Part shown: in pieces, positions 3,205-38,679 of the stretch
Layout: every line of letters starts with the position of its first letter
How positions within the stretch are numbered: the first letter of the stretch is position 1
NCBI GenBank assembly: GCA_017395245.1
Contig: JAFPVR010000127.1
Location: 1 to 40,194 of the forward strand
Length of the DNA: 40,194 nucleotides
Origin: Bacteroidales bacterium
Lineage (GTDB): Bacteria > Bacteroidota > Bacteroidia > Bacteroidales > WCHB1-69
Direction: 5' to 3'
Translations under genes and position numbers: made by a program
Notes under the pieces: generated by a model
Databases searched by the model: none
Seen by the model: the letters and a program-made list of their open reading frames with translations, nothing else
What the model was told of the DNA's origin: nothing

Positions 3205-3963
3205 ATGGACTTCCACATTTACGGCGATTCCAACTCCCCCACCCTCCTGCTCTTACCCGGCTTGGGGGTGTCACATGAGATTTTTCTCCCCTTGGTAGAA
3301 CTGCTGAGGGGAGACTTTTATATCATCGCGGCGGACAACGACGGCTTCCTGCTCGGCAAAGCATCGCAATTCACCTCAGTGGATGATCAAGCGGTGCAGG
3401 CTATCCGCTATGTGCGCGAAAACCATGGCGGACGGTTGGATGTCGCCTACGGACTGTCGTTAGGCGGGAAAATCCTCTCGCGGATGCTGGAGCGCGACGA
3501 AATCACCATCGACCATGCGATTATGGACGCCGCCCCACTGCTGCCGCTGCCGAAATGGAGCGTGGGACCGCTGCGCTACTACCAAGCCCTCAACGTGTGG
3601 ACCTGCTATCACTGGACCGGCTTCTGGCGGTGGTTGTTCCACTCCCACTACTTCGACACGCTGTTAGACGAAGTCAAGAAGGTCTATCCGTCGGGAAAGA
3701 CCCGCGCTGTATTAGACGGCTACAAATCTGTATATACCAGCAAGTTAGAATCCATCCACGGTGCCGACATCCACTACTGGTACGGAACCAAGGAGGCCTT
3801 CGTCGCCAAACCGCAGGCCAAGCATCTGCTCACGCTCTGCCCCGATGCGCACGTGGAAATCTTCCCGAGGATGAACCACGGGCAAATGTTGGTGGACCAT
3901 CCGGAGGAGGTGGCGAAGCGGATAATCGCTATTGCAGAAATATTCACGGAAAATGCGGAATGA
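3205..3963 (+). CDS. alpha/beta hydrolase
   Basis: The product has 252 residues from the ATG at 3205. LLLLPGLGVSHEIFLPLV near the N-terminus is the usual oxyanion-hole region. YGLSLGGKI holds the nucleophile elbow GLSLG with Ser85, and RMNHGQM holds the likely catalytic His225. The acid is uncertain; Glu or Asp in the HYWYGTKEAF region is a candidate. Family members hydrolyse esters, amides or similar bonds; the substrate is unknown, and there is no signal peptide, so it is probably cytoplasmic. The last codons (ENAE then TGA) lie within a TGCGGAA repeat, so the C-terminus may have been remodelled by repeat insertion. Confidence 0.85.
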   Translation: MDFHIYGDSNSPTLLLLPGLGVSHEIFLPLVELLRGDFYIIAADNDGFLLGKASQFTSVDDQAVQAIRYVRENHGGRLDVAYGLSLGGKILSRMLERDEITIDHAIMDAAPLLPLPKWSVGPLRYYQALNVWTCYHWTGFWRWLFHSHYFDTLLDEVKKVYPSGKTRAVLDGYKSVYTSKLESIHGADIHYWYGTKEAFVAKPQAKHLLTLCPDAHVEIFPRMNHGQMLVDHPEEVAKRIIAIAEIFTENAE

Positions 3964-3975
3964 TGCGGAAAATTG
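3948..3975 (+). repeat. TGCGGAA short repeat spanning a stop codon
   Basis: Degenerate copies of GGAAAATGCGGAA and TGATGCGGAAAATTG span the hydrolase stop codon. The same family, in the opposite orientation, is at 19137-19190 (TTTCCGCA). Confidence 0.5.
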
Positions 3976-3983
3976 TATTTTTG
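3976..3983 (+). promoter_or_regulatory. Bacteroidota -7 element TATTTTTG
   Basis: TATTTTTG followed by CGCCG. Transcription would begin at about 3990, so the transcript of the Asp-box gene would start with the palindrome at 3991-4018. Confidence 0.5.
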
Positions 3984-3990
3984 CGCCGTC

Positions 3991-4018
3991 GTAGAGACGC
4001 AAAATTTTGCGTCTCTAC
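3991..4018. repeat. 28-bp palindromic repeat, core CAAAATTTTG
   Basis: A perfect palindrome with arms GTAGAGACG and CGTCTCTAC and core CAAAATTTTG. Identical copies lie at 8427-8454 and 37530-37557. Here it sits in the 5' leader of the next gene. Confidence 0.9.
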
Positions 4019-4036
4019 ATAGCCCGACCTATGTCA

Positions 4037-4065
4037 ACCCAGGGTGAGCGAAGTGAGCCCTGGGT
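4037..4065. repeat. ACCCAGGG / CCCTGGGT hairpin repeat
   Basis: Eight-base arms ACCCAGGG and CCCTGGGT enclose TGAGCGAAGTGAG. The same family recurs twice at 16927-16999. It forms a second hairpin in the leader of the gene at 4084. Confidence 0.8.
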
Positions 4066-4083
4066 ATAAAAAAACATATCAAT

Positions 4084-6135
4084 ATGAAAAAGCTCAACCT
4101 TATCATAGCGCTACTCTGCCTATCGTGCACGTTAACATGTATGGGACAGCAGCAGTATGATCGGGACTACCGTAACGAACTGAACCTCTTAGGAGGTTTT
4201 CCGGTCTTCACACTCGCACCGGATGGGACCTGCTGGTTGACCTCAGGGAGTGGACATGTTTATTATACAGAAAACATTCAGTCCGACTGGCATTGCGCTG
4301 CTCCGTTTTTCCATACGGATAATCATCGTGACTCATTACCAGCGTGGATAGATGTCAATCAGTTATCTTTTCTTGATTCGACCACTGCCATTGCGATTGC
4401 GTACGACCATTGGGATAAGCAGAGCTATTGCTACTACTCTGAGAATCGAGGCAAAAGCTGGTCTCAACATCCAATAGGTGAACGACTTACATTAGAACAG
4501 ATTTGCATGGATGCTCAAGGGCATACATGGCTGGCAGGGTCCGGATATAACCATATTCTCTTTTATTCCGACGACAAAGGCAAAACATTTTCTCCGTTAC
4601 AATTGCCTGTCGACACCCCTGATTGGGCGAAAGTCACCGCGCTGGACATGCGCGACGGTCAATACGGACTGGCTGGATTGAACATCAAATTGGATACTTT
4701 CCATCTTCTGCTGACAGAAGACAACTGGCACACTTCAAAGCAGATTCCCACGCCATTAGGAAACGGCAAGGAAATCGATAAAGTGCTGTTATGGAAAGAT
4801 TTATGGGTGATTAGACAAGGTAACGAGGTGTTTTATACCTCCTCTCAAAATCTGCAGTGGCAGCATTTTCCTATAAAAGTGATGGATTTTTATCCCGATC
4901 GGGAAAATGGCAGTCTGATTGCCATCACCGACAACAACGAAGTGATGGTTTTCACCTCTCCGACGAATTATCGTCCGTTCACCCCCGAACCGCTGCCTGC
5001 AAAACCAGCAACGGCTATCATGTATCACGGGACTCTGTATGCGTGGGCAGTAGGTCAAATCCTTTGCAAAGCGGATGAACGCGGGGTGATTTCTGCTTCA
5101 CATTTTTACACCACTGAAGAACAAATCAAAACACCCTACTTGGTAAGAGAAGGCGAACAGCAGCTTTGGGGTATCGACTTCCGAAACGTGCTTTACCTCG
5201 CCGACAAATCGGACGGCAGATGGTATCGTTGTCAACAAATGCCGTTGGATGTCAAAACGTTCCAGCTCTTAAATGACAGCACGGCCCTGTTTTGGGACGG
5301 CCAACGGCATTACACCTACTCCCTCGCCGACAAGCAACTGCGCGACTACGTATTGACTTCCCCGTTACAGGATTTTCTGACCGCTCCTGTCACCGAAGTT
5401 GTTCTTTGCGGCGGACACACGGACTTCCGCGAAGATACCATCCGTTACCTAATCAACTCTGACGAGGAGCTGCATACATCGTTTGCCACGCTGACTCACA
5501 TTAAGAAAGACCATTATTGCAGGGAATGTCCTGTTGAAATCACGCGAAAGAAAGTGAAATTCCGGCATGAGGCCTGTCGACAGGAATTAGACAGCATTCT
5601 CAGCGACATTAATCGGAATTATTCCAGAATTCCAACGGTTTCCGAACTGCAAATCACCGAAAAAGACGTACAAAATTACTATAAACTGTTGGAGAAAACC
5701 AACTTTATGAATCTGGGAGTTAAGATAAACCCCATGTCACGTTTCTACGATTTCGATTATATGGAGGATTTCTACCGAACGATGCCGGACCGAATAGACA
5801 CACTGAGTGCCAACACATTACGTAAAATTCTATACAAACACGAAAACTGGCATTGTTCCGGTGGCGCCCACTGGTTCACGATTCAGGTTATGAACAGCAA
5901 CAGCGATACGCTCCTATTCAGCCATTACAACATTGATCACGAATATGCATGGTACCTCCCGTGGCTGGTGGAATACAACGGGATGCCGTTCCGTTGTTAC
6001 AGCATTGCGCTATCACGCTGGGTGTCGGACTGTCTGCCCGGGAAATTTTACGGCAAGGAATGCTTCGACAACGCACATTTTCTCTTGCAGGTGGCCAACT
6101 ATTTGTGGTTGAAACATTCGAATGGCAATTTTTGA
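4084..6135 (+). CDS. secreted Asp-box (BNR-like) protein, unknown function
   Basis: The 683-residue product has an N-terminal signal (MKKLNLIIALLCLSC) and is probably exported. It contains at least two Asp-box motifs of the SxDxGxTW type: SENRGKSW at 119-126 and SDDKGKTF at 162-169. These mark beta-propeller blades as in sialidases and YCF48-like proteins. The first 450 residues or so are blade-like (strands with WLTSGSG and TWLAGSG turns). The last 200 or so residues form a separate region without a recognised domain. No sialidase catalytic arginine triad was identified, so I do not call an enzyme. It stands alone behind a leader with two hairpin repeats. Confidence 0.75.
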   Translation: MKKLNLIIALLCLSCTLTCMGQQQYDRDYRNELNLLGGFPVFTLAPDGTCWLTSGSGHVYYTENIQSDWHCAAPFFHTDNHRDSLPAWIDVNQLSFLDSTTAIAIAYDHWDKQSYCYYSENRGKSWSQHPIGERLTLEQICMDAQGHTWLAGSGYNHILFYSDDKGKTFSPLQLPVDTPDWAKVTALDMRDGQYGLAGLNIKLDTFHLLLTEDNWHTSKQIPTPLGNGKEIDKVLLWKDLWVIRQGNEVFYTSSQNLQWQHFPIKVMDFYPDRENGSLIAITDNNEVMVFTSPTNYRPFTPEPLPAKPATAIMYHGTLYAWAVGQILCKADERGVISASHFYTTEEQIKTPYLVREGEQQLWGIDFRNVLYLADKSDGRWYRCQQMPLDVKTFQLLNDSTALFWDGQRHYTYSLADKQLRDYVLTSPLQDFLTAPVTEVVLCGGHTDFREDTIRYLINSDEELHTSFATLTHIKKDHYCRECPVEITRKKVKFRHEACRQELDSILSDINRNYSRIPTVSELQITEKDVQNYYKLLEKTNFMNLGVKINPMSRFYDFDYMEDFYRTMPDRIDTLSANTLRKILYKHENWHCSGGAHWFTIQVMNSNSDTLLFSHYNIDHEYAWYLPWLVEYNGMPFRCYSIALSRWVSDCLPGKFYGKECFDNAHFLLQVANYLWLKHSNGNF

Positions 6136-6160
6136 AAAAAGCAGGCATTCTGATAAATTG

Positions 6161-6168
6161 TATCTTTG
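6161..6168 (+). promoter_or_regulatory. Bacteroidota -7 element TATCTTTG
   Basis: TATCTTTG followed by CCGC, 44 bases before the flavodoxin ATG. It fits TAnnTTTG. Confidence 0.55.
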
Positions 6169-6212
6169 CCGCTCAAAGAAAAGCAATGATTTTTATCTAA
6201 AAACGTAATAAA

Positions 6213-7058
6213 ATGAGAAACATCAACCTTTTGCTGGTCCTCGCGGCCGTGACGCTAACCGCCGTCTCCTGCGGTTCGAAAAAAGAAACCCCGAAAGAGG
6301 AAGCCCCCAAGATGCTCGTCCTCTATTACTCCCAAACCGGCAACACCAAGGCCGTGGCGGAGGAAATCGCCAACGAGCTCGGTGCCGATATCGAGGAAAT
6401 CACGATGGTGGATCCCTACGACCCCGATTTCCAGGCGACCATCAACCGCTGCATGAAAGAGCGGGAACAGGAAATCCTTCCGACCATCAATCCGGTGAAG
6501 GCCGACCTCGCCAACTATGACGTGATTTTCCTCGGCTACCCTGTGTGGTTCGGCACCTACGCGCCGCCCGTAATCACGTTCCTCAAAGATGCCGACCTCA
6601 GCGGCAAGAAGATTGTGCCGTTCTGCACGTTTGGCAGCGGCGGACTGGAATCCAGCGTGAAGGACTTGGTGGCGGCAGAGCCCCATGCGGAGGTGCTTCC
6701 CGGTTACGGAGTCCGTGCCGCCCGCCTGGAGGCAATGCCCAAGGAGGTGGACAATTTCTTGAAGACCAGCGGCTTCCTCGAAGGCGAATACACGAAGTTA
6801 GCGAAATTTCCCGAGCAACATGAGGTGAATGCAGACGAAGCGGCTATCTTCGATGCAGCTGTCGATGGTTACCCGATGATTCACGCCAAGGCCAAGACCG
6901 TCGCGGTGCGTACGATTCCCGACGGCACAGAGTACCTCTTCACCGCCGTTGACCTTCCCCGCGAGGACAACCCGAAGATGCCGCCCGCCGGCGAAATGCA
7001 GGTGTATGTGACCGTGGCGAATGGTGCCGCACCGGTGTTTACAAAGGTAATACGGTAA
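6213..7058 (+). CDS. flavodoxin-domain lipoprotein
   Basis: The 281-residue product has a lipobox ending TAVSC with Cys20, so it is anchored on the outer face of a membrane. A flavodoxin domain follows: LVLYYSQTGNTKAVAEEIA contains the FMN phosphate loop (S40-QTGNT45), and FLGYPVWFGTYAPP and FCTFGSGG are the later FMN-contacting loops. Flavodoxins carry electrons through bound FMN. Residues after about 200 form a C-terminal extension of unknown role. With the FMN reductase at 7867 and the regulator between them, it suggests a small redox cluster. Confidence 0.85.
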   Translation: MRNINLLLVLAAVTLTAVSCGSKKETPKEEAPKMLVLYYSQTGNTKAVAEEIANELGADIEEITMVDPYDPDFQATINRCMKEREQEILPTINPVKADLANYDVIFLGYPVWFGTYAPPVITFLKDADLSGKKIVPFCTFGSGGLESSVKDLVAAEPHAEVLPGYGVRAARLEAMPKEVDNFLKTSGFLEGEYTKLAKFPEQHEVNADEAAIFDAAVDGYPMIHAKAKTVAVRTIPDGTEYLFTAVDLPREDNPKMPPAGEMQVYVTVANGAAPVFTKVIR

Positions 7059-7171
7059 TTATATCCCGTAGATTTCGCTGATTTCAGAGTAGCCGTTCAC
7101 CGGTTTCTGAAAAATGTCTATCTTGGCGCACCGGCGACGTCTGCCTCTCGCTCTTTCCCGAGGAAGACTCC

Positions 7172-7822
7172 GTGGTGAATCACTGTGTGTGCGACGGATC
7201 GTTTGAGCTCTTCAACATCGTGCTGACCGAGCCGGTGGTGCGGCAGTTAGCCGAACGGCATCCCGATGCGTTGAATGTTTTCTGTCGCGATTTCGAGCGC
7301 AACGAGTCCATCGCCTACACGCCCGAAGGCACGCAGGCCGACCGCAAGCTGCTGAACCTCTTCCGCGCTGTGGAAGAGTGCAACGAAATGGGCAACTACG
7401 CAGCCAAGTATTTGGACACCATGATTTTGGACACGCTGTCGATGATGATCAACCGCGCCAGCGAATCGGACGAGCAGCACACGCCCGTCAATCTGGCATT
7501 GTCTGAAAAGGTGCACGCCGCCCGCGACATTATGACGACGCAGTATCAAGATCCGCCGTCATTGCACGCGCTGGCTTTGATGGTGGGCACCAACGAATGC
7601 ACGCTCAAGTCTGCCTTCAAGCAGGAGTTCGGCGAGACCGTCTTCCAGTGTCTTTTCGACCACCGCATGTCTTTGGCCACCAAGTATTTGCTGGAAACCT
7701 CATGGCCCATCGCCGAGGTCGGACTGCTCTTGGGTTACGAATACCAGAGCCACTTCTGCACCGCCTTCCGTCGGAAATACGGCATGTCGCCGACGGAGTT
7801 CCGGGATGGCAAACGGGCATAG
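7172..7822 (+). CDS. AraC-family regulator, truncated at the 5' end (possible pseudogene)
   Basis: The C-terminal two-helix-turn-helix DNA-binding domain is intact: SLHALALMVGTNECTLKSAFKQEFG, then IAEVGLLLGYEYQSHFCTAFRRKYGMSPTEFR, which ends with the classic AraC signature. The open frame continues upstream of the GTG at 7172 as RTGDVCLSLFPEED, which fits the N-terminal sensing domain of this family. Similarity then disappears at about 7125 with no ATG before the TGA at 7079. Roughly 60-70 N-terminal residues are missing compared with usual lengths near 280. It may be made from GTG as a short regulator or be dead. Its neighbours, flavodoxin and FMN reductase, are plausible targets. Confidence 0.7.
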   Translation: MVNHCVCDGSFELFNIVLTEPVVRQLAERHPDALNVFCRDFERNESIAYTPEGTQADRKLLNLFRAVEECNEMGNYAAKYLDTMILDTLSMMINRASESDEQHTPVNLALSEKVHAARDIMTTQYQDPPSLHALALMVGTNECTLKSAFKQEFGETVFQCLFDHRMSLATKYLLETSWPIAEVGLLLGYEYQSHFCTAFRRKYGMSPTEFRDGKRA

Positions 7823-7866
7823 TGGCGTAAACATAATGTCTTTGGAAATCAATTAACCCCATCAAT

Positions 7867-8418
7867 ATGAAAAACATCCTTTTCATCGTCGGTTCGCTGA
7901 GAAAAGACTCCTTCAACCGGCAGCTCGCCCAAGAGGCGGAAAAGAATCTGGCAGGCATTGCCGAAGTCTCCTATTTAGACTACACGGACGTGCCGTTTAT
8001 CAACCAGGACATCGAATATCCCGCGCCCGCAGCGGTGGCCAAACTGCGGGAAACGGTGGCCAATGCCGACGGCCTCTGGATCTTCACCCCCGAGTACAAC
8101 TTCAGCTATCCCGGACATCTGAAAAACGTGATTGACTGGCTATCCCGCCCCGTGGTGGCATACGATTTCGCCACACCGACGGTCATGAACGGCAAGAAGG
8201 TGGCGTTGAGCGGTGCCGGCGGACAGATGGCCACGGGCAAGTGCCGCGAGAAGCTCACCGAACTGCTCACCTTCATCAAAGCCGACGTGATGGCCGAGCC
8301 GCAGACGGGTGTCGTCCTCAACGCGGAAGCCTTGACAGAGGGCCGCATGATCCTCACCGACGAGCAGCGCGCCGCGCTGAAGACCCAGGCGGAGGCGTTC
8401 GTGAAATATTTAGGGTAA
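7867..8418 (+). CDS. NAD(P)H-dependent FMN reductase
   Basis: The 183-residue product is of family length. GSLRKDSFNRQLA at 9-21 is the FMN phosphate-binding loop, and TPEYNFSYPGHLKNVIDWLSRP from about 74 is the signature of the NADPH-dependent FMN reductase / ChrR-type quinone reductase family. The GAGGQMATGKCR segment is the second flavin loop. The enzyme transfers electrons from NAD(P)H through bound FMN to quinones, azo dyes, metals or free flavin; the true acceptor is unknown. It is cytoplasmic and lies 44 bases after the AraC-like gene on the same strand. It converges with the lipoprotein gene ending at 8451. Confidence 0.92.
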   Translation: MKNILFIVGSLRKDSFNRQLAQEAEKNLAGIAEVSYLDYTDVPFINQDIEYPAPAAVAKLRETVANADGLWIFTPEYNFSYPGHLKNVIDWLSRPVVAYDFATPTVMNGKKVALSGAGGQMATGKCREKLTELLTFIKADVMAEPQTGVVLNAEALTEGRMILTDEQRAALKTQAEAFVKYLG

Positions 8419-8426
8419 TGTACGTT

Positions 8427-8454
8427 GTAGAGACGCAAAATTTTGCGTCTCTAC
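8427..8454. repeat. 28-bp palindromic repeat, core CAAAATTTTG; supplies a stop codon
   Basis: A perfect palindrome identical to 3991-4018, between two convergent genes. On the minus strand its TAG (8453-8451) is the stop codon of the lipoprotein gene. The hairpin could act as a bidirectional transcript end. Confidence 0.9.
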
Positions 8455-9668
8455 TCCTTGTACATCTCTTTCTTCCACCAATCAAACGATTGATTCCATT
8501 CTTTCGACAACAGTTTGCGGTATTTGGCAAAAAGGGCAGGATGTTCTTTCTTCAAATCAATATAATCGTCAAAAAGCCCCTCTGATAATTCTCCGTCGGA
8601 AAACTCGCCCATGCGCATGTAGGCAAACATGATGCCCGCGCTGTCGGCGTGCGCATAGTCGCTCATCCGTGGCCAAAGATAGTTCAGTTGAGACTCAGCA
8701 GGTGAGTCAATGCTATACCACATCCACAATTCCTCTTCCGTTGATGGAATGACATCCAACACAACTTTGGCTGCAGGGTGGCAATCTTTGTGACCATATT
8801 CTTTCAGATACCGCTGCAACCGTCCAGAATAAGGGATGAGATAGTCCTCCTCATGCGTAAACCATTGTTCGTCAGCTTGATATAGAGCTCGTAGAGAATC
8901 ATAGTCCGACCAGCCATAAGTATATACTTGCCATCCGCGATCCGAGTACTCATCTACTGGGCTGAACTCGCCAACGCCAATGTCCAATCCTCGTGAATCG
9001 GGTATCCGGAAATCGCCCCAGTTGCATTTTTCCATGCGGGTGAGATCCTTCGAGGTCCATACACCCTCGTACTGACGGTTGTCGTAGCCGTCGGCACACT
9101 CAAGCATAACGGCATCGTAATAGAACCGTCCGTTAATCTTCGCGAATTCGACAGACATTTTGCCACTCAGGACCCCGCCGCCGGAAAACTCATCCTCGTC
9201 AAACTGGTAATGTCCGTACAGACTCCCGAATTCACCCGTTGACGGCTGGTGTTCCGCTTGGTACAAACGCATGGAGTCTAACGTGATCATTCCGGAGAAA
9301 AGCCGGATGGTGTCGCGGTAGCGGGTGCGTCCATACACGTCATAGACACCGTTGCCCTTGAAACGGACGCTGTCGTAATGGATGTAGAACCGCTGGAAGT
9401 CGCCGCCCCGATACCCAAACGGCTCGAACCAGCGCGGCTCAAAGGCCTTTTCGTTGAAAACATACTCCTCCGTTTGGGAATCGTAGTCGGGCTCAATCAG
9501 GATGGTGTCCGGCATAATCACCCGCGAGAGATCCGTGTCCCGAAGCTCCTCCATCGTGACAGCCGTCATCTTCCCCCCATCTTTGCAGGCGGTCAGGGTG
9601 AGCATTGCCGACAGCACCACCAACAGAATGCTGAAGATTCTCTTTGACATAGTGAGTCGTTTTTTCAT
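8451..9668 (-). CDS. lipoprotein of unknown function
   Basis: The product is 405 residues from the ATG at 9668, or 399 from a second ATG at 9650 just before the hydrophobic stretch; both keep the lipobox MLTLTAC. The mature part is acidic and rich in Tyr and Asp (EPDYDSQTEEYVF, HYDSVRFKGNGVYDVYGRTRYRD), with a helical C-terminus ending FDWWKKEMYKE. I recognise no family. The stop TAG is the TAG of the palindromic repeat at 8427-8454, so the native C-terminus may have been altered by repeat insertion. Confidence 0.75.
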   Translation of the reverse strand: MKKRLTMSKRIFSILLVVLSAMLTLTACKDGGKMTAVTMEELRDTDLSRVIMPDTILIEPDYDSQTEEYVFNEKAFEPRWFEPFGYRGGDFQRFYIHYDSVRFKGNGVYDVYGRTRYRDTIRLFSGMITLDSMRLYQAEHQPSTGEFGSLYGHYQFDEDEFSGGGVLSGKMSVEFAKINGRFYYDAVMLECADGYDNRQYEGVWTSKDLTRMEKCNWGDFRIPDSRGLDIGVGEFSPVDEYSDRGWQVYTYGWSDYDSLRALYQADEQWFTHEEDYLIPYSGRLQRYLKEYGHKDCHPAAKVVLDVIPSTEEELWMWYSIDSPAESQLNYLWPRMSDYAHADSAGIMFAYMRMGEFSDGELSEGLFDDYIDLKKEHPALFAKYRKLLSKEWNQSFDWWKKEMYKE

Positions 9669-9738
9669 TATTTAATATTATGATGCAAAAAAAACAAATG
9701 GTTGCAGTTTGTTCAAAAATATTTCATAAAATGCTGAA

Positions 9739-9765: not shown

Positions 9766-9773
9766 AATGATTT

Positions 9774-9798
9774 ATTCATAATTCATAATTCATAATTC
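9774..9798. repeat. AATTCAT tandem repeat over a C-terminus
   Basis: About three and a half copies of a 9-base unit (CATAATTCATAATT) overlap the last codons of the ferredoxin gene. They encode its final residues IMNYEL and include its TGA stop (9778-9776). Confidence 0.7.
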
Positions 9799-10561: not shown

Positions 10562-10580
10562 AGTGGTTCGTTTTTGGGGG

Positions 10581-13117: not shown

Positions 13118-13145
13118 GTAGAGACGCGCCATGGCACGTCTCTAC
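13118..13145. repeat. 28-bp palindromic repeat, core CGCCATGGCA
   Basis: Arms GTAGAGACG and CGTCTCTAC are exact; the core has one C/A mismatch at its ends. It lies between convergent hicB and the M28 peptidase gene, 11 bases beyond the peptidase stop. Confidence 0.88.
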
Positions 13146-13156
13146 GATACCGTCAA

Positions 13157-14422
13157 TCAATACTTTTCGACAAAATCCCTCACCAATTTGAACAGCGGCT
13201 CGTACGTGTCGAACACCGCATGTGCCCAGTCGTCGTTGACGGTGTGGTAGTACTGGAACGCGTCGCCGCTCTCGTTTTCGAAGAGGATGCTCGGCACGCC
13301 TTTTTCGGTGAAGGGATAGTGGTCGCTGTTGCCAGCCAACTCGCCGCGGTTCAGCCCTTTAAAGTAGTGCTGCTGTTCGTTGATTTTGTCGAACATTGCG
13401 AAACCACGGTCGGAGTTGGTTTCAACGTATTGCACCGGGTTGTTGTCGCCAATCATGTCGATATTGAAGAGGAACTTGATCTGCGACAACGGCACGACGG
13501 GGTGATCCACATACCACTCCGAACCACGGAGGTTAGCATCCTCGCCGGAGAAGGCGATGAAGTACATGTCGTACTCGGGACGGTTTTTCGCGTAGTAGGC
13601 GGCCAGCGTGACTATGGCGGCAGTGCCGGAGGCGTTGTCGTTGGCTCCCGCATAGAACACCTTCTTGCCAAGGTTGCCGAGGTGGTCGTAATGCGCCGTG
13701 AAGACGAAGCAGCTGTCGTGCCGCCTGCCCTCCACCTTGGCGATGACGTTGAAGAGCTCGTAATCCTTCAGAAACTTGTTCTCGATATCGACCGTGATGG
13801 TTTTGGCGTCCTTCGGGAAGTCGGAGGTGGCCCAGATGACGGGCTTGCCCATCACTTTCTCTCCGTATGCCTTGTAGAACTTCAGCAGCGGTTCCCACGT
13901 CTGGATCATGCCGGCGTTGGTGCAACCCTCTTTGCCCCAAATTTTCTGGAAATCTTGGTAATGACGATAGGAAAACCAGAAGTCGCAGACCACGAAGCAG
14001 TCCTTGTACTCGGGCTTTGCGAGGTCGGCGAACATCTTCTCGGCGTTGTAATTGTTCGTGTCAACATAGTAGAGTTTGTAGGTGCCGCGCACGCCCGGCG
14101 AGTACTCGCGCATGGAGAAATCGACGCCCGGGGTCAGTTTGCGACCATCCACAGACATTTCCATTTTGCTTGGAAACGTGTTGATATTGATGGTGAACGG
14201 CTGGCAGATAACCTCGTCGACGCCCGCCTTCTTGTATTCTTTCAGCAGGTATTTCCCCGCCTTGTTGGCCCCGCCGTAGGCATAGCCGCGACCCTGGTAC
14301 TTCGCAGAACTCAGCTCCTTCACAATCTGTTTGTAATGCGCAAGATCCTGCGCCTGTAGAGACGTAATGCATTGCGTCTCTACGAATATAAACGCTAATG
14401 CTACTAAAATCAGTTTTCTCAT
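13157..14422 (-). CDS. M28-family zinc peptidase with repeat-altered signal peptide
   Basis: The product is 421 residues from the ATG at 14422. The M28 metal site is present: TAHYDHLGN (His and Asp), AGANDNASGTAA (bridging Asp), FSGEDANLRGSEW (catalytic Glu, with Asp at the usual second-Glu ligand), FNIDMIGDN (Asp) and GNSDHYPF (His). These are co-catalytic zinc aminopeptidases. The N-terminus MRKLILVALAFIF is a signal-peptide core, but the next residues VETQCITSLQ are encoded by a palindromic repeat (14356-14383) before AQDLAHYK resumes. Export probably depends on cleavage near LQA-QD. The substrate is unknown. Confidence 0.9.
   Translation of the reverse strand: MRKLILVALAFIFVETQCITSLQAQDLAHYKQIVKELSSAKYQGRGYAYGGANKAGKYLLKEYKKAGVDEVICQPFTININTFPSKMEMSVDGRKLTPGVDFSMREYSPGVRGTYKLYYVDTNNYNAEKMFADLAKPEYKDCFVVCDFWFSYRHYQDFQKIWGKEGCTNAGMIQTWEPLLKFYKAYGEKVMGKPVIWATSDFPKDAKTITVDIENKFLKDYELFNVIAKVEGRRHDSCFVFTAHYDHLGNLGKKVFYAGANDNASGTAAIVTLAAYYAKNRPEYDMYFIAFSGEDANLRGSEWYVDHPVVPLSQIKFLFNIDMIGDNNPVQYVETNSDRGFAMFDKINEQQHYFKGLNRGELAGNSDHYPFTEKGVPSILFENESGDAFQYYHTVNDDWAHAVFDTYEPLFKLVRDFVEKY
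14356..14383. repeat. 28-bp palindromic repeat inside a coding sequence, core TAATGCATTG
   Basis: Arms GTAGAGACG and CGTCTCTAC are exact. It lies in frame within the signal-peptide codons of the M28 peptidase, where it encodes about VETQCITSL. It is the only copy inside a gene. Confidence 0.92.
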
Positions 14423-16561: not shown

Positions 16562-16858
16562 ATGATAGAATCTTTCAGCATTTGGGAAGTGTTATTTCTG
16601 CTCTGCTTTGCGGTGAGCTGGCCGGTATCCATCGCCAAGTCGCTCCGCACCAAGGTTGTCATCGGCAAAAGCCCGCTCTTCATGTCGCTGGTCATCCTCG
16701 GCTACATCTTCGGCATCATCCACAAAGTGCTGTACAGCCGGGATGTTGTCATCTTCCTTTACATGTTCAACGCCCTGCTGGTATCCACCGACCTGTTCCT
16801 CTACTTCCTCTACATCGGGAAAAACCGCAAGGAACTGCAGCAAGGCAACAAAGAATAG
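16562..16858 (+). CDS. small membrane protein, PQ-loop-like
   Basis: The 98-residue product has three hydrophobic segments (about 7-25, 36-55 and 63-84). The first ends in SWPVSIAKSLRTK, followed by GKSPLFMSLVILGYIFGIIHK. A W-P dipeptide at the end of a helix followed by a basic loop resembles PQ-loop/SemiSWEET-type half transporters, but the diagnostic P-Q is not present, so the family call is tentative. The last residues QGNKE and the TAG stop lie within a GGCAACA-type repeat, so the C-terminus is probably not native. The frame is open upstream to 16346, but that stretch overlaps the start of the divergent DUF4421 gene. Confidence 0.65.
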   Translation: MIESFSIWEVLFLLCFAVSWPVSIAKSLRTKVVIGKSPLFMSLVILGYIFGIIHKVLYSRDVVIFLYMFNALLVSTDLFLYFLYIGKNRKELQQGNKE

Positions 16859-16887
16859 GCAACAGGGAATAGGTAATAGGCAATAAC
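16843..16887. repeat. GGCAACAGGGAATAGG repeat spanning a stop codon
   Basis: Two unequal copies (GGCAACAAAGAATAGG and GGCAACAGGGAATAGG), then TAATAGGCAATAAC. The first copy contains the TAG stop of the small membrane protein. Related to 10598-10628. Confidence 0.7.
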
Positions 16888-19683: not shown

Positions 19684-19747
19684 TGATCAGTGATCAGCGA
19701 CCAGTGATCTGAATTTCTAAAGTCTTAAGTCTCACGTCTTACGTCTA
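19684..19747. repeat. TGATCAGTGATCAG and AAGTCTTAAGTCTCACGTCTT repeats
   Basis: Two repeat families fill the rpsJ-fusA gap: GATCAGTGATCAG (19684-19711, as at 24487-24570) and AAGTCTTAAG/ACGTCTTACGTCT (19719-19747, as at 27425 and 27528). The fusA stop TAG (19747-19745) is the first three bases of the second family on the minus strand. Confidence 0.7.
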
Positions 19748-21838
19748 TAAAATAAACCGTCCGACGTTCATGATGTAGTCTTTGATCTCAGGGGTAACCT
19801 CCGCGTATTTCAGGAATTCCATACTGAAGGTCGCGCGTCCTGAGGTGATGGAGCGTAACGTAGTCACATAGCCGAACATTTCAGCCAAGGGCACTTGCGC
19901 CGTGATAATCTGGAAACCGACTTTCGCATCGATGCCTTCCAGCACGGAGCGTCTGCGGTTAAGGTCGCCGGTGACGTTGCCGATGAACTCGTCCGGGGTG
20001 GTGATTTCCACCTTCATAATCGGTTCGAGAATGGCGGTGTCGATCTCCTTCAGCGCCTCGCGGAAACCGATCTTCGCACAGACCTCGAAGGAGAGGGCAT
20101 CGGAATCGGTCGGGTGAGACTCGCCGTCGGTGACGGTTACCTTGAGGGCTTCAAGCGGGAACCCGTACTTGCCGTTCATCATGGCAATCTGGAATCCCTT
20201 TTCCGCACCGAGGATGTAGTTCTTCGGCACAGCGTCGCCCTTGATCTCGCTGCTGAACTGCAGACCTTTGGCATCCAACGGCAGCGGGTCGATGCGGAAG
20301 TCCATCACCGCGAAAGAACCGCGGCCGCCATTCTGGCGCTTGTAGGCCTCATGATGCTGCACCGGCACAAGAACTGCCTCCTTGTAGGCCACTCTCGGTT
20401 TGCCGTGGTTGCAATCGACGTTGAACTCGCGTTTCAGGCGGTCCAGTAGGATTTCCAAATGCAACTCGCCCATGCCGCTGATCAGCGTCTGTCCGGATTC
20501 GGAATCCTCCTTCACTTGGAAGGTGGGGTCTTCGTCGGCCAGCTTGTTGAGTGCCGTCATCAGCTTTTCCTCGTCATCCTTGGTTTTGGGCTCGATGGCG
20601 ATTTGGATCACCGGTTCGGGGAACACGATGTTCTCCAAAATCACGGGATGCCGATCGTCCGTCAGGCTGTCGCCGGTGTGAATATCCTTCATACCGACCA
20701 GAGCGACGATATTGCCTGCGGTGGCACTATCCAACGGCTGTTGCTTGTTGGAGTGCATCTGCAGGATTTTGGCTGCGCGTTCCTTTTTGCCGGAGGTGAC
20801 GTTATAGACACTCTCGCCAGCCTTGAGTTCGCCGGAATAAACCTTGATGAAGGTCAGCTTCCCGATATACGGGTCGGTAGCGATTTTGAAGGCTAACGCC
20901 GCAAAGGGCTCATTGATGTCGGCCTTGCGAGTCTCCTTTTCCTCACTTTTCGGGTTCACGCCTTCGATGGCGGGAATGTCGAGCGGTGAGGGAAGGTACT
21001 TCACGATGGCGTCGATGACACGCTGCACGCCCTTGTTCTTGAAAGAGGAACCGCAAAGTACGGGTTCTATCTTGCGGGCAAGGGTGGCCTCGCGAATGGT
21101 CTCCTCCATCTCCTCCATGGTAATGCTGTCGGGATCCTCAAAGTATTTCTCCATGATGGTCTCGTTCAGCTCCGAGAGGGTCTCGAGGAGTTTTTCGCGA
21201 TATTCCGCGACATCCTCTTTCATGTCGGCGGGAATGGGCACTTCGTGATAAGTGCTTCCGAGGTCTTCCTCTTCCCATTCGTAAGCCTTCATTTCGAGGA
21301 GGTCAACGATGCCTGTGAAACTGTCTTCGCTGCCGATGGGCAGTTGGAGGACCAGCGGGGAGGCTTTCAGCTTTTCGCGAATCTGGTTCACGACAGCGTA
21401 GAAGTTGGCGCCGGAGCGGTCCATCTTGTTAACGTAGCATATACGCGCCACGTTGTACTTGTTGGCCTGTCTCCAGACGGTTTCCGACTGTGCCTCCACG
21501 CCTCCGACGGCGCAGAATATGGCTACAGCTCCATCCAATATTCTCAAAGAACGTTCGACTTCGACGGTAAAATCAACGTGACCCGGAGTGTCAATGATGT
21601 TGATTTTATAGTCTTGGCCGTTGTATTTCCACATCACTGTGGTTGCCGCGCTGGTGATGGTGATTCCGCGTTCCTGCTCCTGCACCATCCAGTCCATCGT
21701 GGCGGTTCCCTCATCCACCTCGCCGATCTTGTAGCTTTTACCGGTGTAGTACAGAATCCGCTCCGTGGTGGTGGTCTTGCCGGCGTCAATATGGGCCATA
21801 ATGCCTATATTGCGTATCTGTTTCAACTCCTCTGCCAT
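19745..21838 (-). CDS. fusA: elongation factor G
   Basis: The 697-residue GTPase has [14 protein letters not shown] (P loop, 15-28), the DTPGHVDF switch II (83-90) and NKMD (137-140), followed by the translation-factor domains II-V. The C-terminus [18 protein letters not shown] has the domain V fold end. EF-G drives tRNA and mRNA translocation and, with RRF, ribosome recycling. It is between rpsG and rpsJ, without a tuf gene, as in other Bacteroidota. The TAG stop coincides with the start of a TAGACGTAAGACG repeat. Confidence 0.98.
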
Positions 21839-24469: not shown

Positions 24470-24486
24470 TTAACCATGTACATCAC
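24440..24486. repeat. GTACAATTTACAATGTAC short repeat
   Basis: Degenerate copies of (A)CAATTTACAATGTACGATG at the 5' end of the flippase gene. They cover the codons before its conserved domain. Confidence 0.55.
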
Positions 24487-24570
24487 TGTTCACTGATCAC
24501 TGTTCACTGATCACTGTTCACTGATCACTGTTCACTGATCACTGTTCACTGATCACTGTTCACTGATCAC
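24487..24570. repeat. 14-bp tandem repeat, six exact copies (TGTTCACTGATCAC)
   Basis: Six perfect copies of TGTTCACTGATCAC in 84 bases. Each holds TGATCA, so every unit is partly self-complementary. The last base is also the first base of the leuS stop codon read on the minus strand. Confidence 0.95.
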
Positions 24571-27407
24571 TAAAAAACAATATTCACAATCTTCTTCGGA
24601 ACGATAATGAGTTTCTTCGGCGTTTTGCCGTCGAGCCACTTCTGCACATCGGGGTTGCCGAGAATCAACGGCTCAATGTCCTTGGGCGTGTAATTGGCCG
24701 GGAACGACATCTTCAACCGCATCTTGCCGTTGAAGGAGACTGGGTAGAGGTACTCATCCTCCACCATATATTGCTCATTATAAACCGGATAGGTAGCTTT
24801 CAAAACAGATTCCTCGTGACCGAGCAGCGACCAAAGCTCCTCAGTAATGTGCGGTGCATAGGCTGACATCAAGATGCAGAGCGGTTCCAGAACGGCGCGC
24901 TTGGCACACTTGGCATCGCCCAACTCGTTGACGCAAATCATGAACGCACTGACGGCCGTGTTGAATGAGAAACGCTCGTTGTCCTCCTCGATTTTCTTGA
25001 TGGTCTTGTGCAACGACTTCCACTCGCCCTTGGTCGGCTCCTCGTCGGTGACACGGAAGTTACCCTCCGCGTCAAAGTAGAGCTTCCAGAACTTGCGGAT
25101 GAAACGGGATACGCCCTCGATGCCGTTCGTGTCCCAAGGCTTGGCCATCTCCACCGGACCCAGGAACATCTCATACATACGCAGCGTATCCGCACCGTAC
25201 TTCTCCACCAAGTCGTCGGGGTTCTGTACGTTGTATTTCGATTTCGACATCTTCTCGATTTCCCAACCGCAGACGTACTGCCCATCCTCCAGAATGAACT
25301 CCGCATCCTTGAAGTCGGGCATCCAGTTGCGGAAGGCCTCGATGTCGAGAATGTCGTTGCGCACGATGTTGACATCCACATGGATACGAGTGGTCTCGTA
25401 CTCTTTGCGCAAGTTGAACGACACGAACTTGTTAGTGCCGACAATACGATAGACGAAGTTGGAGCGGCCCTGAATCATGCCCTGGTTGATGAGTTTCTGG
25501 AAAGGTTCGTCCTCGCAACTCACGCCAGTGTCGAAGAGGAATTTGTTCCAGAAGCGGGCGTAGATGAGGTGGCCGGTGCCGTGTTCCGCACCGCCGACGT
25601 AAAGATCGACGTTCCGCCAGTACTCGTCAGCCTCCTTGGAGACCAGCGCCTCATCATTCTTCGGGTCCATATAGCGGAGGTAGTAGGCACTGGAACCGGC
25701 GAATCCGGGCATGGTGCTGTATTCACGCGGATAACCGTTCCACGTCCAATCCTTGGCACGAGCCAACGGCGGCTCACCGGTTTCGGTGGGGAGGAACTGG
25801 TCGACTTCGGGCAACACAACGGGCAACTCATTTTCGGGAACCGTATAGGGCATACCATCCTTATAATATATAGGAAAGGGCTCGCCCCAGTAGCGCTGGC
25901 GGCTGAAGATGGCGTCGCGCAAGCGGTAGTTCACCGTGCCGTAACCAATGCCCATGTCGTTGATTTTCGCAATCACCGCCTTGCCAGCCTCTTTGACAGG
26001 CATTCCGGTGATGAAGCCGGAGTTGACGCAGACACCGGTCTTGCTGTCCATGGATTCCTCCCAGGTGTCGGGGTTGCTGGTCTCATCAATAGCGGGCGCA
26101 ACCACCTGACGAATCGGCAGGTTGAAGTGTCTTGCAAAAGCGAAGTCGCGGCTGTCGTGGGCGGGCACGGCCATGATGGCGCCGGTGCCGTAGTCACTCA
26201 GCACGTAGTCACTAATCCAGATGGGAATACGCTCCTCGGTGATGGGGTTGATGGCGAATGCGCCGGTGAAAACGCCGCTCACCTTCTTGACCTCAGCCTG
26301 CCGCTCGCGCTCGGAACGGTTCTTGGCCCAGGTGACGTAGGCTTCCACCTCAGCCTTTTGCTCGGGCGTGGTGATGCTCTCAATCATCTCATGTTCAGGA
26401 CACAAGACCATGAAGGTGACACCGAAAATCGTGTCAGGGCGAGTGGTGAAAATCTCGAAAGCAGTCTCACTCTCCACACCATCGACATTGCCGCCCATGT
26501 AAATCTTCTTCCAATCCAGCTGGCCTTCCTTGGCCAACGGGAACCAAACGGCGGCACCTTCGCTGCGACCAATCCAGTTGCGCTGGATTTCCTTCAGCGA
26601 GTCGGTCCATTCGACCTTTTCAAGCCCCTGAAGCAGGCGTTCGGCATACGCGGATACGCGCAAAATCCACTGTTTCATCTGCTTGCGCTCCACAGGGAAA
26701 CCGCCACGCACGGAAAGACCGTTCACCACCTCATCGTTGGCAAGCACGGTGCCGAGTTTCGGGCACCAGTTCACCCATGTGTCGGCGAGATAGGCCAGCC
26801 GATAGTTCATCAGGATTTCCTGCTGCTCCTTCTCGGAAGCGGCATTCCACTCTTCAGCGGTGAACTCTATCGGCTTGGTCTGCGCCACATCCAACCCCTC
26901 CGTGCCGTTGGCCGCAAATGCCTCCATCAGCTCGGAAATCGGGCGGGCTTGGTTGGCTTGGTTGCAGTAGTAGCTGTTAAAGAGCTGGATGAACGTCCAT
27001 TGCGTCCACTTGTAGTAGTCGGGGTCGCAGGTCTTGAACGAGCGGTCCCAGTCGAACGAGAAACCGAGTTTGTCGAGCTGCTCACGATAGCGGTTGACGT
27101 TCTTCTCGGTGGTCACCGCCGGGTGCTGGCCCGTCTGGATGGCATACTGCTCCGCCGGCAATCCGAAGGCGTCGTAGCCCATCGGGTGCAGCACGTTGAA
27201 GCCCTTCTGCCGTTTGTAGCGGGCGTAAATGTCGGAGGCGATATAGCCCAGCGGATGCCCCACATGCAGGCCCGCGCCCGACGGGTAAGGGAACATGTCC
27301 AGCACGTAGAATTTCGGTCTGTCGTTAACAATCTCCGTTTTATACAGGCCGGTTTCTTTCCACTTTGCCTGCCATTTCTTTTCGATTTCTCTGAAATTGT
27401 ATTCCAT
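24570..27407 (-). CDS. leuS: leucyl-tRNA synthetase
   Basis: The 945-residue class I synthetase has the HIGH motif as HVGH at 48-51 ([16 protein letters not shown]) and the KMSKS motif at 719-723 (EKMSKSKYN). An editing domain lies between ([15 protein letters not shown] and [15 protein letters not shown]). It charges tRNA-Leu and hydrolyses mischarged products. The anticodon-binding domain and C-terminal domain follow KMSKS. The length is slightly above the usual 860-940. The TAG stop runs straight into the 14-bp tandem repeat. The flippase gene is next on the same strand. Confidence 0.97.
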
Positions 27408-27527: not shown

Positions 27528-27570
27528 GAGTCCCAAGTCTCAAGTCTTAAGTCTCAAGTCTCAAGTCTTA
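27528..27570. repeat. AAGTCTCAAGTCTTAAGTCTC repeat over a stop codon
   Basis: Five to six copies of a CAAGTCT/TAAGTCT unit. Read on the minus strand it starts TAAGACTTGAGAC, and that TAA is the stop codon of the giant surface protein. Confidence 0.75.
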
Positions 27571-36165: not shown

Positions 36166-36214
36166 TGTTTTTAATTTATAATATTCTACTATATAAAAAG
36201 GCCAAAAAAGGGTG

Positions 36215-36222
36215 CAAAAATA
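36215..36222 (-). promoter_or_regulatory. Bacteroidota -7 element TATTTTTG
   Basis: On the minus strand TATTTTTGC lies 49 bases before the giant surface protein ATG. Confidence 0.6.
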
Positions 36223-36253
36223 CACTTTTTTTGGGGAAAGGCAATGAATAAAT

Positions 36254-36714
36254 TAGGAGGGTCGGCATAGGAGGGTCGGCATTCCTGCCGACCGCCGTAA
36301 AACACGACATAATAGGAGGGTCGGCATCCTTGCCGACCGCCGTAAAACACGACATATTAGGAGGGTCGGCATCCTTGCCGACCGCAGTAAAACGCGACAT
36401 ACTAGGAGGGTCGGCATCCTTGCCGACCGCCGTAAAACGCGACATACTAGGAGGGTCGGCATCCTTGCCGACCGCCGTAAAACACGACATATTAGGAGGG
36501 TCGGCATCCTTGCCGACCGCCGTAAAACACGACATATTAGGAGGGTCGGCATCCTTGCCGACCGCAGTAAACGCGACTTACTAGGAGGGTCGGCATCCTT
36601 GCCGACCGCAGTAAAACGCGACATAATAGGAGGGTCGGCATTCCTGCCGACCACCATAATAACACGACACATTAGGAGGGTCGGCATCCTTGCCGACCAC
36701 CGTAATAACACGCC
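36254..36714. repeat. 45-bp tandem array with hairpin in each unit (about 10.3 copies)
   Basis: Ten full units start at 36268, 36313, 36358, 36403, 36448, 36493, 36538, 36582, 36627 and 36673; a 14-base partial unit is at 36254. Each has GGTCGGCA-TCCT-TGCCGACC (an 8-bp hairpin; TTCC loop in units 1 and 9) and a near-constant CGTAAAACACGACAT linker. Two units differ in length by one base. The array fills most of the 36166-36738 gap between the glycosyltransferase and the giant gene. Confidence 0.97.
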
Positions 36715-36742
36715 ACGGAGACGCACGTCCGTGCGTCTCTAC
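36715..36742. repeat. 28-bp palindromic repeat, core CACGTCCGTG; supplies a stop codon
   Basis: The right arm CGTCTCTAC is exact and the left arm has decayed to ACGGAGACG. On the minus strand the TAG of GTAGAGACG (36741-36739) is the stop of the glycosyltransferase gene. It abuts the 45-bp array. Confidence 0.85.
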
Positions 36743-37482
36743 AGGTCGAAAATGTCAAACCGGCCGAGGTGCCATTTCTGGAGCCGGAACTGCAAGGAGG
36801 TTCGCAGCACGCCGAACCCGTAGCGGCAGCTGCGCCGGAAGTTGATGGAGGAGGCCTCCGGGAAATATTTCGTCGGGCAGGTGATCTCCCCGATGTCGTA
36901 GTCGGCGTAGATAATCTGCGCCAGCATCTGGTTGTCGAACACGAAATCGTCGGAGTTGCGCATGAACGGCACGGTTTCGAGCACTTCGCGGGTGAAGGCG
37001 CGGTAGCCCGTATGATACTCCGAGAGCTTCTGGCCGGTCATCACGTTCTGGAACCAGGTCAGACAGCGGTTGAAAATGTACTTGTAACGCGGCATTCCGC
37101 CCTTGAGCGCCCCGTTGCCGAGAATACGCGAAGCCAGCACCACGGGATAAAGCCCGTTAGCCATCATGTACGCGATGGACTCGATGAGCTGCGGGGTGTA
37201 TTGGTAGTCGGGATGCAGCATGATGACGATGTCGGCGCCAAGCTGCAGGGCCTTGCCGTAACAGGTTTTCTGATTGCCGCCATAACCCTTGTTGACATCA
37301 TGGCGCAACACATGCTGGATGCCCAACGAACGGGCCACCTCCACGGTGTCGTCCGACGAACAGTCATCCACCAAAATGACCTCATCCACAATCTCGGCGG
37401 GAATCTCCCGATAGGTTTTTTCCAAGGTCTGCGCGGCATTGTAGGCCGGCATCACAACTACGATTTTCTTTCCTTTTAACAT
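36739..37482 (-). CDS. DPM1-like family 2 glycosyltransferase
   Basis: The 247-residue GT-A enzyme begins [33 protein letters not shown] (Asp39-Asp40) binds the nucleotide, and [10 protein letters not shown] (Asp92) carries the metal-binding acidic position. [14 protein letters not shown] and [14 protein letters not shown] fit dolichol-phosphate mannosyltransferase-like members. There is no strong C-terminal membrane segment, so it is probably cytoplasmic and membrane associated. It would use a nucleotide-sugar donor and a polyprenyl-phosphate or similar acceptor; neither is certain. The stop TAG is supplied by a palindromic repeat. Confidence 0.9.
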
Positions 37483-37486
37483 GGGT

Positions 37487-37516
37487 TTTAGGGTTACAAG
37501 ATTATGAGGTTATGGG
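37487..37516. repeat. GGTTATGGGG-type repeat upstream of a start codon
   Basis: On the minus strand degenerate ATAACC/AACCC units run up to the glycosyltransferase ATG. Same family as 19087-19117 and 38531-38556. Confidence 0.5.
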
Positions 37517-37529
37517 GTTGCGGGGTGTT

Positions 37530-37557
37530 GTAGAGACGCAAAATTTTGCGTCTCTAC
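37530..37557. repeat. 28-bp palindromic repeat, core CAAAATTTTG; supplies a stop codon
   Basis: A perfect palindrome identical to 3991-4018 and 8427-8454. On the minus strand its TAG (37556-37554) is the stop of tatC. Confidence 0.92.
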
Positions 37558-38324
37558 CCCTGCGCAATCCGATTTTTACATGTGCGCCGGACCACCACGA
37601 CGCTCAATTCGTACAACAGCCATATCGGCAACGATACGATGAGCAGGGTGAAGGCATCGGCGGTGGGAGTGACGATGGCCGCGAGAACAAGGATGGCCAC
37701 GATGGCGTGCCGCCGGTACTGGGTCATCCATTCCGCCTTCAGCAGCCCGAAACGCGCCAACAACCAACTGATTACGGGTATCTCAAAGATAATGCCGAAT
37801 ACAAGACTCATCAGCAGCAGCGTGTCCATGTACGACTGCAAGGTCAGCATATTGCGAACTTCACCGCTCACCTGGTAGGTACCGAGGAAACGCACCGTCA
37901 GTGGGAAAACGACCAGGTAGTTCACCGCCACGCCAATGAGGAACATCAGGTAGGCGGCCAGCACAAGGCTCACCGAGTGCTTTCGCTCGTTCTCGTACAG
38001 CGCCGGTCGCACGAAGGCGAACAACACGTAGAGAATGTAGGGCGAGGCTAACAGGAAGCCCACCGCGACAGCCGTCTTCAAGTGAATCATGAACTGTTCC
38101 GTGAGGCCGGTGTTCATCAGTTGGATGGAAAAGTCGCCGCCGCCGAACAGCCGGTACATGAAGAACGTGGAGTCCTTCGGGGCCAGCATCACCTTGAACA
38201 GCAGGTCTTTGAAGCAAAAGGCCAACACGGAGAAAAGCAGCGCGGCCACCAGAATCCGGATCAGGCTGCCCCGCAAATCCTCCAGGTGATCCCAAAAAGA
38301 CTTGGTTTCCGCCGTCTCGGACAT
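37554..38324 (-). CDS. tatC: Sec-independent protein translocase TatC
   Basis: The 256-residue protein has the TatC opening KSFWDHLEDLRGSLIRILV and then six hydrophobic helices (about 22-40, 80-100, 115-140, 165-190, 200-220 and 222-240). The loop FAFVRPALYENERK holds the conserved F-x-x-P-x-L-x-x-x-E-R/E-K pattern. TatC binds twin-arginine signal peptides and recruits TatA. It starts three bases after the tatA stop, so they form one operon. The TAG stop lies in a palindromic repeat. Confidence 0.96.
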   Translation of the reverse strand: MSETAETKSFWDHLEDLRGSLIRILVAALLFSVLAFCFKDLLFKVMLAPKDSTFFMYRLFGGGDFSIQLMNTGLTEQFMIHLKTAVAVGFLLASPYILYVLFAFVRPALYENERKHSVSLVLAAYLMFLIGVAVNYLVVFPLTVRFLGTYQVSGEVRNMLTLQSYMDTLLLMSLVFGIIFEIPVISWLLARFGLLKAEWMTQYRRHAIVAILVLAAIVTPTADAFTLLIVSLPIWLLYELSVVVVRRTCKNRIAQG

Positions 38325-38327
38325 TGG

Positions 38328-38525
38328 CTATTCAGGCTTGTTTTCCGTCCCTTTCGTTTCCGGCTCGTCCTTGGCGTCCGGGGATCCGTCCTTGCCGTTC
38401 ATGCCGTCCTTGAAGGAGCGCACGCCCTTGCCGAGCCCGCTCATCAGTTCGGGGATCTTCTTCCCGCCGAACAGCAGCAGCACCACCAAGGCGATGATAA
38501 TGATTTCTGTCATTCCGATTCTCAT
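38328..38525 (-). CDS. tatA: Sec-independent protein translocase TatA
   Basis: The 65-residue protein has a single N-terminal helix ([35 protein letters not shown]). The FGGKKIPE hinge and amphipathic helix are typical of TatA, with a charged tail of Asp, Glu and Lys. TatA polymerises into the twin-arginine pore. A second start four codons later (38513) is as plausible and would begin directly at the transmembrane helix. AATAACC repeats lie about six bases before the start. Confidence 0.95.
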
Positions 38526-38530
38526 ATCTT

Positions 38531-38556
38531 TTAGGTTATGGGTTATTGGTTATTGA
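38531..38556. repeat. GGTTATGGGTTATTGGTTATTG repeat upstream of tatA
   Basis: On the minus strand CAATAACCAATAACCCATAACC ends a few bases before the tatA ATG. Same family as 19087-19117. Confidence 0.65.
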
Positions 38557-38640
38557 CGCCCCACATTGCGGCTTCGCCTTATGTGGAGTTAATTGCGCTT
38601 CGCGCGTTTTGCCTCTTCGAGGCTGTTTAAGGTATATTCT

Positions 38641-38679
38641 TTATTCTACATTCTACATTCTGCATTCTTCATTGTCTTA
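38641..38679. repeat. ATTCTACATTCTACATTC repeat over a stop codon
   Basis: Four degenerate ATTCTACATTC-type units. On the minus strand the tract starts TAAGACAATGAAGAATG, and that TAA is the stop codon of the DUF721 gene. Confidence 0.65.

Follow-up and report, generated by a model that had tools for sequence, protein, structure and literature searches.

Introduction

GTAG REPs are short, high-copy palindromes with a GTAG end that are mostly intergenic, with some copies inside genes (PMC3733652). They sit near the 3' ends of convergent and tandem genes, and their termini "often provide" the TAG stop codon to the flanking ORFs (PMC3733652). In E. coli, REPs located within 15 nt of a stop codon can lower translation (PMC12306157). 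TAACTGA arrays, in turn, are built of intergenic tandem units of 7 nt. Thirteen sets of these arrays overlap the stop of the upstream gene; they hold stops in all three frames, and the source stresses sites just upstream of start codons (PMC4679880). The supply of stop codons by repeats is therefore a phenomenon of a known kind.

In this study, we analysed a window of 40,194 nt from a Bacteroidales bacterium (contig JAFPVR010000127.1, assembly GCA_017395245.1). An earlier note on this DNA had listed ten genes whose stop codon belongs to a short repeat and had assigned these repeats to several families. We found that the repeats at these stops are of two kinds, a palindrome and heptad arrays, which behave differently.

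Materials and Methods

The genome carrying the window (G000, 3.78 Mb) was sampled over 0.97 Mb (26%) in 60 records, four overlapping loci being left out. Parts of two congeneric genomes were sampled as well (G016, 0.79 Mb; G026, 0.31 Mb); placement in tandem gene pairs and counts of periodic arrays refer only to the first 0.40 Mb of G016. Genes were called with a hexamer script of our own, and the calls were checked by eye in the window only. The G000 sample comprised 764 genes and 104-105 palindromes with up to 3 arm mismatches. Offsets are given as stop position minus palindrome position, +1 being the TAG of GTAG. Orthologue lengths were taken from tblastn: 37 genes with a palindrome stop were queried, and usable orthologues were obtained for 15 queries, which represent 13 genes. 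Orthologous palindrome sites were placed by their flanks and form a non-exhaustive set.

Results

Palindromes and heptad arrays in the window

The full unit of the palindrome, GTAGAGACG-N10-CGTCTCTAC, spans 28 bp. Three of its copies provide the stop codon of a gene: the copy at 8427-8454 for the lipoprotein gene at 8451-9668 (stop 8451-8453, minus strand), the copy at 36715-36742, which has two arm mismatches, for the glycosyltransferase gene at 36739-37482, and the copy at 37530-37557 for tatC (37554-38324). In all three, as had been proposed, the stop is the TAG of GTAGAGACG in one common register. Two further copies are intergenic (3991-4018 and 13118-13145), and one lies in frame 0 within a called gene (14356-14383 in 13157-14422). 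The last two, at 39149-39176 (one arm mismatch, T-rich tail) and 39203-39230, form a pair whose members start 54 nt apart. Four other pairs in the sample show exactly this start-to-start spacing, and any other spacing below 200 nt occurs once.

Heptad arrays account for most of the remaining listed stops. An ATTCATA array at 9774-9798 lies over the ferredoxin stop (9776-9778), so that the last ferredoxin codons are also array sequence, and an AGTCTCA array at 27529-27570 covers the stop of the giant surface protein gene (27568). The heptad-type AGGCAAC array at 16843-16885, over the stop of the small membrane protein (16858), is called by TRF and not by our stricter array rule. The TRF array of ATCACTG/TTCACTG units at 24482-24571 holds two of the three bases of the leuS stop (24570-24572). 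Neither TRF nor the stricter rule calls the heptad-like stretch at 19719-19751, which spans the fusA stop (19745-19747). Direct reading of the sequence against the repeat and palindrome maps thus bears out eight of the ten listed stops, and the other two are weak: the ATTCTAC array at 38643-38673 ends 3 nt short of the DciA (DUF721) stop (38677-38679), and the TGA of the hydrolase at 3963 stands between two TGCGGAA words, a two-copy repeat without a TRF call. Pfam backs the names hydrolase, ferredoxin, fusA, leuS, glycosyltransferase, tatC and DciA. The Pfam scan gave no match for the lipoprotein and the small membrane protein, which are named from the first sequence reading, as is the giant surface protein, which lay outside that scan. 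An Rfam search of the window returned one tRNA and nothing else.

Under the stricter array rule, 6 of the 33 stops of the window fall in a palindrome or heptad array, compared with 48 of 693 (6.9%) elsewhere in the sampled genome; the window is therefore above average in repeat-borne stops. A further repeat occupies 36268-36712, separating the giant surface protein gene from the glycosyltransferase gene. It consists of about ten 45-nt units, each made of TAGGAG, the hairpin GTCGGCATCCTTGCCGAC and a spacer, and its tag resembles that of the repeats around a RAYT-like gene in L022.

Abundance and spread of the palindrome

A search with exact arms (TAGAGACG-N4..14-CGTCTCTA) returned 257 copies in the whole 3.78 Mb of G000 and 0 with the reversed-pattern control. 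GTAG stands at both ends in 67 of 69 exact copies, and the hairpins reach -18 to -21 kcal/mol. The palindrome was present in 43 of 60 genomes, G000 included. Among congeners it was found in 34 of 35 genomes, with 2 to 205 copies each, and in other families of the order in 8 of 24, with 1 to 22 copies. A scan of one genome per species yielded at least 117 stretches with the palindrome; the 80 stretches among the matches listed, sorted by title, comprise 46 from Bacteroidota, 22 from cyanobacteria and 12 others.

Placement behind genes

Palindromes build up just downstream of genes. In G000, their density per kb of spacer is 1.85 between convergent genes and falls to 0.81 for tandem and 0.25 for divergent pairs. 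In tandem pairs, the palindrome lies on the upstream stop or within 6 nt of it in 19/58 cases in G000, 11/30 in G016 and 5/10 in G026, compared with 5.7, 3.0 and 1.7 expected if placement in the free space were uniform. Moreover, the 19 copies on the stop side in G000 compare with 2 of 58 within 6 nt on the start side. Heptad arrays behave likewise, reaching the upstream stop or coming within 6 nt of it in 43/90, 12/25 and 27/47 tandem pairs of the three genomes, against predictions of 12.1, 5.1 and 5.8. Hence, when distances to stops are compared with random placement, as the earlier note had advised, both kinds of repeat exceed the uniform expectation in the samples of all three genomes.

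Stop register of the palindrome

The TAG of the palindrome can be read in only one of the three frames; in the common cores, the two other frames are open through the palindrome, as read from the sequence. We found that this TAG is the stop of a gene (offset +1) for 17 of 104 palindromes in G000, 15 of 83 in G016 and 5 of 24 in G026. The 61 offsets from -60 to 0, pooled, hold 56, 47 and 10 stops in these genomes, about one per nt in G000. Against the 37 genes that end in the TAG register, genes that pass through a palindrome to a stop no more than 134, 208 or 330 nt away come to 3, 12 and 13, although random frames predict 74 read-throughs, twice the number of TAG-register stops. With one third expected, the binomial p is 7e-15 (134 nt), 2e-9 (208 nt) and 5e-9 (330 nt), 208 nt being the fairer limit because that of 134 nt was set after the list had been seen. 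At least four of the 12 read-throughs (L038, L049, L062 and L234) show a mutual alignment that extends past the palindrome and therefore represent insertions within genes, not run-on ends. These related genes carry two or three in-frame palindromes each in their C-terminal parts (L038:4971-5178, L062:10601-10805, L049:13344-13488, L234:5724-5844), which are read as VETxxxxSLQ-like peptides. Read-through does occur: the C-terminal tail of tatC in G012 is encoded by a decayed palindrome that the gene crosses in another frame.

In the 80 listed stretches from other genomes, where no coding test was applied, 4 of 84 palindromes end a frame of at least 100 codons at the TAG, and 6 frames of that length cross a palindrome and stop no more than 134 nt away. 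Closures compare with near read-throughs as 2 vs 4 in Bacteroidota, 1 vs 2 in other phyla and 1 vs 0 in cyanobacteria. We therefore regard the register effect as established in this genus alone; elsewhere it may be weak.

Protein length at palindrome stops

Comparison of C-termini with repeat-free orthologues, the other check that had been advised, revealed no truncation. For the 13 genes, the difference from the first-listed palindrome-free orthologue was +1, +1, -5, +6, -5, +2, 0, 0, -2, +5, -2, +1 and -5 residues (mean -0.2). Of 9 scanned proteins with a palindrome stop, 6 have a last Pfam domain that reaches to 0 to 12 residues from the C-terminus, and three were uninformative. Among loci of the genus, own genome included, a palindrome or half-site stands at the stop of nfo in 4 of 30 and of trmO in 3 of 30, and loci with the element are nearly as long as those without it.

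Insertion units, half-sites and transposase genes

A clean presence/absence of an in-frame palindrome was found once, with a difference of 30 nt (L034:7695-7772 vs L034:11435-11542 and L227:3953-4060); the gene copy that lacks the palindrome has no GTAG. An insertion unit of 24 nt (28 minus GTAG) was dropped, the sole clean site giving 30 nt. Length differences of 24 nt did turn up, but one was split over two gaps, one lay in poorly aligned sequence, and in a third the supposed empty copy seems to hold a decayed palindrome. We also discarded an apparent excess of half-sites at stops (7/20 vs 16/131 words, p 0.016), in which intergenic palindromes had been counted from both ends; with palindromes counted once, p rises to 0.25. 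The own genome has three Y1_Tnp matches, one of them with a palindrome about 0.27 kb upstream. Two are RAYT-like and fall below the NCBIfam cut-off (REP_Tyr_transpos). These two genes (L022:967-1827 and L023:1438-2130) each lie in an array of another hairpin repeat, and the reading frame in L022 includes repeat units at each end.

Arms and cores at orthologous sites

At eight orthologous sites the core of the palindrome differs strongly, namely L013/L223, a tRNA-side copy (L150/L169), nfo, L034/L227, L038/L185, L049/L234 and two sites in the L228 gene. At four others (trmO, L062/L233, L042/L231 and L009/L228) it is identical or one base off. Conserved arms around a core that differs between species can be seen at L228:17471-17498 with its orthologues L356-L370, and at L013:3022-3049 compared with L223; reading frames, too, contain such sites. 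Of 15 congener species, 10 have the palindrome at one codon of the L228 gene (site A). The arms there differ by 0.044 per base and the core by 0.61, with 0.42 and 0.27 for the flanks. The cores of this site show 11 mispairs of 50, whereas re-dealt halves give a mean of 29, and the lowest of 2000 deals is also 11. The commonest cores form a small set common to the genomes.

Heptad arrays as a property of spacers

Heptad repeats also occur as the STRR of cyanobacteria. In G000 we counted 134 arrays of period 7, against 0, 2, 0, 9 and 0 for periods 5, 6, 8, 9 and 10; the two congener samples gave 42 and 59, with 0-9 for other periods. Stops within a heptad array amount to 34/726 in G000 and to 28/631 and 24/236 in the congeners. 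A 7-nt periodicity is general in the non-coding DNA of all three samples and absent well inside genes: matching at lag 7 is 0.29-0.40 in spacers, where neighbouring lags give 0.25-0.31, and 0.24-0.26 deep within genes. It is raised across the whole spacer, most of all in the 25 nt that follow a stop and, to a lesser degree, beside starts. The fusA protein has 697 residues in 30 of 30 loci, and the species of one subclade carry differing heptads directly behind its stop; in more distant species, no heptads were seen there by eye. The lag-7 pattern and fusA therefore identify the stop as the starting point of non-coding DNA and, with it, of the process that makes repeats. Heptad arrays at stops are thus largely a boundary effect, although at the stop edge they exceed uniform placement two- to fivefold, more than such an effect alone would give. 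The idea that heptads serve as three-frame stop signals was rejected: stop triplets recur at +7, +14 and +21, and this is uninformative because any array touching a stop gives the same pattern.

Discussion

Our results lead us to favour, as moderately probable, a reading in which a REP-like palindrome settles at the 3' ends of genes and takes over the stop codon when it lies in register, the heptad arrays being a separate matter. Copies of the palindrome accumulate just behind genes, as the placement counts show. Where one comes to lie only a few codons from the native stop, selection would keep the lineage mainly if the frame of the gene coincides with that of the TAG, because genes in the other frames would gain nine or more codons and run on. 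The TAG of the palindrome would then act as the stop with little alteration of protein length, as was seen in 13 genes. Tandem 7-mers, a thing apart from the palindrome, fill non-coding space, with replication slippage as their probable source, and the stop is often the first triplet of an array because the coding sequence sets the array edge.

One feature fits the selection account poorly. A purine precedes GTAG in 8 of 24 palindromes at stops and in 2 of 70 nearby intergenic copies (p 2e-4), and this excess may reflect a greater age of the copies at stops or another way of landing. It would also suit an alternative that we regard as unlikely, in which a GTAG-recognising (RAYT-like) transposase inserts the palindrome behind a pre-existing GTAG, so that a gene ending in G-TAG offers a site where insertion spares the protein. 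Such targeting would explain the exact register without frame selection. In line with it, the glycosyltransferase gene of G012, which has no palindrome, ends in G-TAG, and Y1_Tnp is absent from 7 of 60 genomes, which hold 0-5 palindromes and include small genomes. The palindromic share of GTAG, 23-26% at stops in the three genomes and 16-42% just behind genes, has been counted on the same side, although this comparison is circular because the palindrome itself brings GTAG. However, the first-listed palindrome-free orthologues end in TAG in only 3 of 13 cases and in G-TAG in 1 of 13, TAG accounting for 175 of the 726 stops of the sample. Moreover, no GTAG is present at the sole clean empty site, where the length difference is 30 nt and not 24, and the two RAYT-like genes sit within arrays of other repeats.

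A role of the palindrome at the stop would offer another way to account for its retention. Stalling of ribosomes and protection of mRNA 3' ends have been proposed for the REPs of E. coli, and a hairpin that stalls the terminating ribosome or protects the 3' end of the mRNA could be kept by selection. The stability of the hairpins agrees with this proposal, as do the many copies that lie on a stop or a few nt from it and the report that REPs up to 15 nt from a stop can lower translation (PMC12306157). Nevertheless, T-runs follow the hairpin on 16/166, 17/136 and 1/36 sides in the three genomes, compared with about 14% of random intergenic places. A hairpin followed by a T-run, the mark of an intrinsic terminator, is accordingly not a property of the family, and single copies, such as that at 39149, have a T-run. 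Terminator-like sites number 6 against 4.8 in shuffles, and two of the 6 are palindrome copies. Versions with G-U or C-A core pairs show no clear strand bias, 21 vs 15 behind genes, and asymmetric cores inside genes amount to 4 vs 10. The element, finally, stands at the stop in only the few nfo and trmO loci given above (4/30 and 3/30). The role in mRNA 3' ends or translation that the earlier note had suggested thus finds no support in T-runs, strand bias or presence at orthologues, and we consider functional selection quite unlikely, while single genes may experience a regulatory effect. The opposite proposal, that stop-bearing repeats cut genes wherever they are inserted, can point to the stop triplets in palindromes and forward heptads and to the heptad sequence of the last ferredoxin codons. 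For palindromes it fails, because only one frame is stopped, near read-throughs are scarce and orthologues are not longer; for heptad arrays it comes closer. As a general cause, truncation is disfavoured by the C-terminal lengths, the complete C-terminal domains, the constant length of fusA and the scarcity of out-of-register ends, and it appears highly improbable.

Besides the settling of palindromes at stops, the contrast between arms and cores calls for its own explanation. We tentatively suggest that the arms GTAGAGACG and CGTCTCTAC might serve as fixed docking sites, between which the 10-nt core would be swapped in place as a cassette, even within reading frames. The swap could possibly be effected by a recombination or conversion process, with the role as a stop helping to anchor the arms. 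Drift under a repair that restores the palindrome could have produced the same core pattern; the small set of cores common to the genomes favours exchange over drift. Conversion among REPs is an old proposal. In open-licence papers, consulted mostly at the level of title and abstract, no title or abstract on core exchange was found. If true, core exchange would make conversion among REP-like elements testable in one gene across species.

Altogether, the counts in three genomes and the comparison with orthologues show that a gene can come to end at the stop codon of a repeat with no shortening of its protein, and that an apparent single phenomenon is in fact two. For annotation, it is relevant that roughly 7 to 12% of the sampled genes have their stop within one of these repeats.

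The likeness to REPs that had been pointed out holds for GTAG ends, high copy number, a strong 3'-end bias and TAG stops (PMC3733652). With 28 bp, the palindrome is within the 20-40 bp range of GTAG REPs, and it is likewise found mainly in convergent and tandem spacers, near 3' ends. It differs from the one-ended tag described there in having GTAG at both ends and a near-perfect symmetry; in addition, its 10-nt core is of a few exchangeable types, and it comes without an identified partner transposase. With the REPs of E. coli, the palindrome shares a hairpin close behind the stop (PMC12306157), but in our case the repeat itself can contain the stop. The heptad arrays resemble the TAACTGA arrays in being intergenic tandem units of length 7. 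Unlike those (PMC4679880), they comprise many different units, which change between species at one site, and they belong to a general 7-nt periodicity of non-coding DNA. What is added here to these systems is a symmetric, core-exchanging member, with counts in three genomes and an orthologue test.
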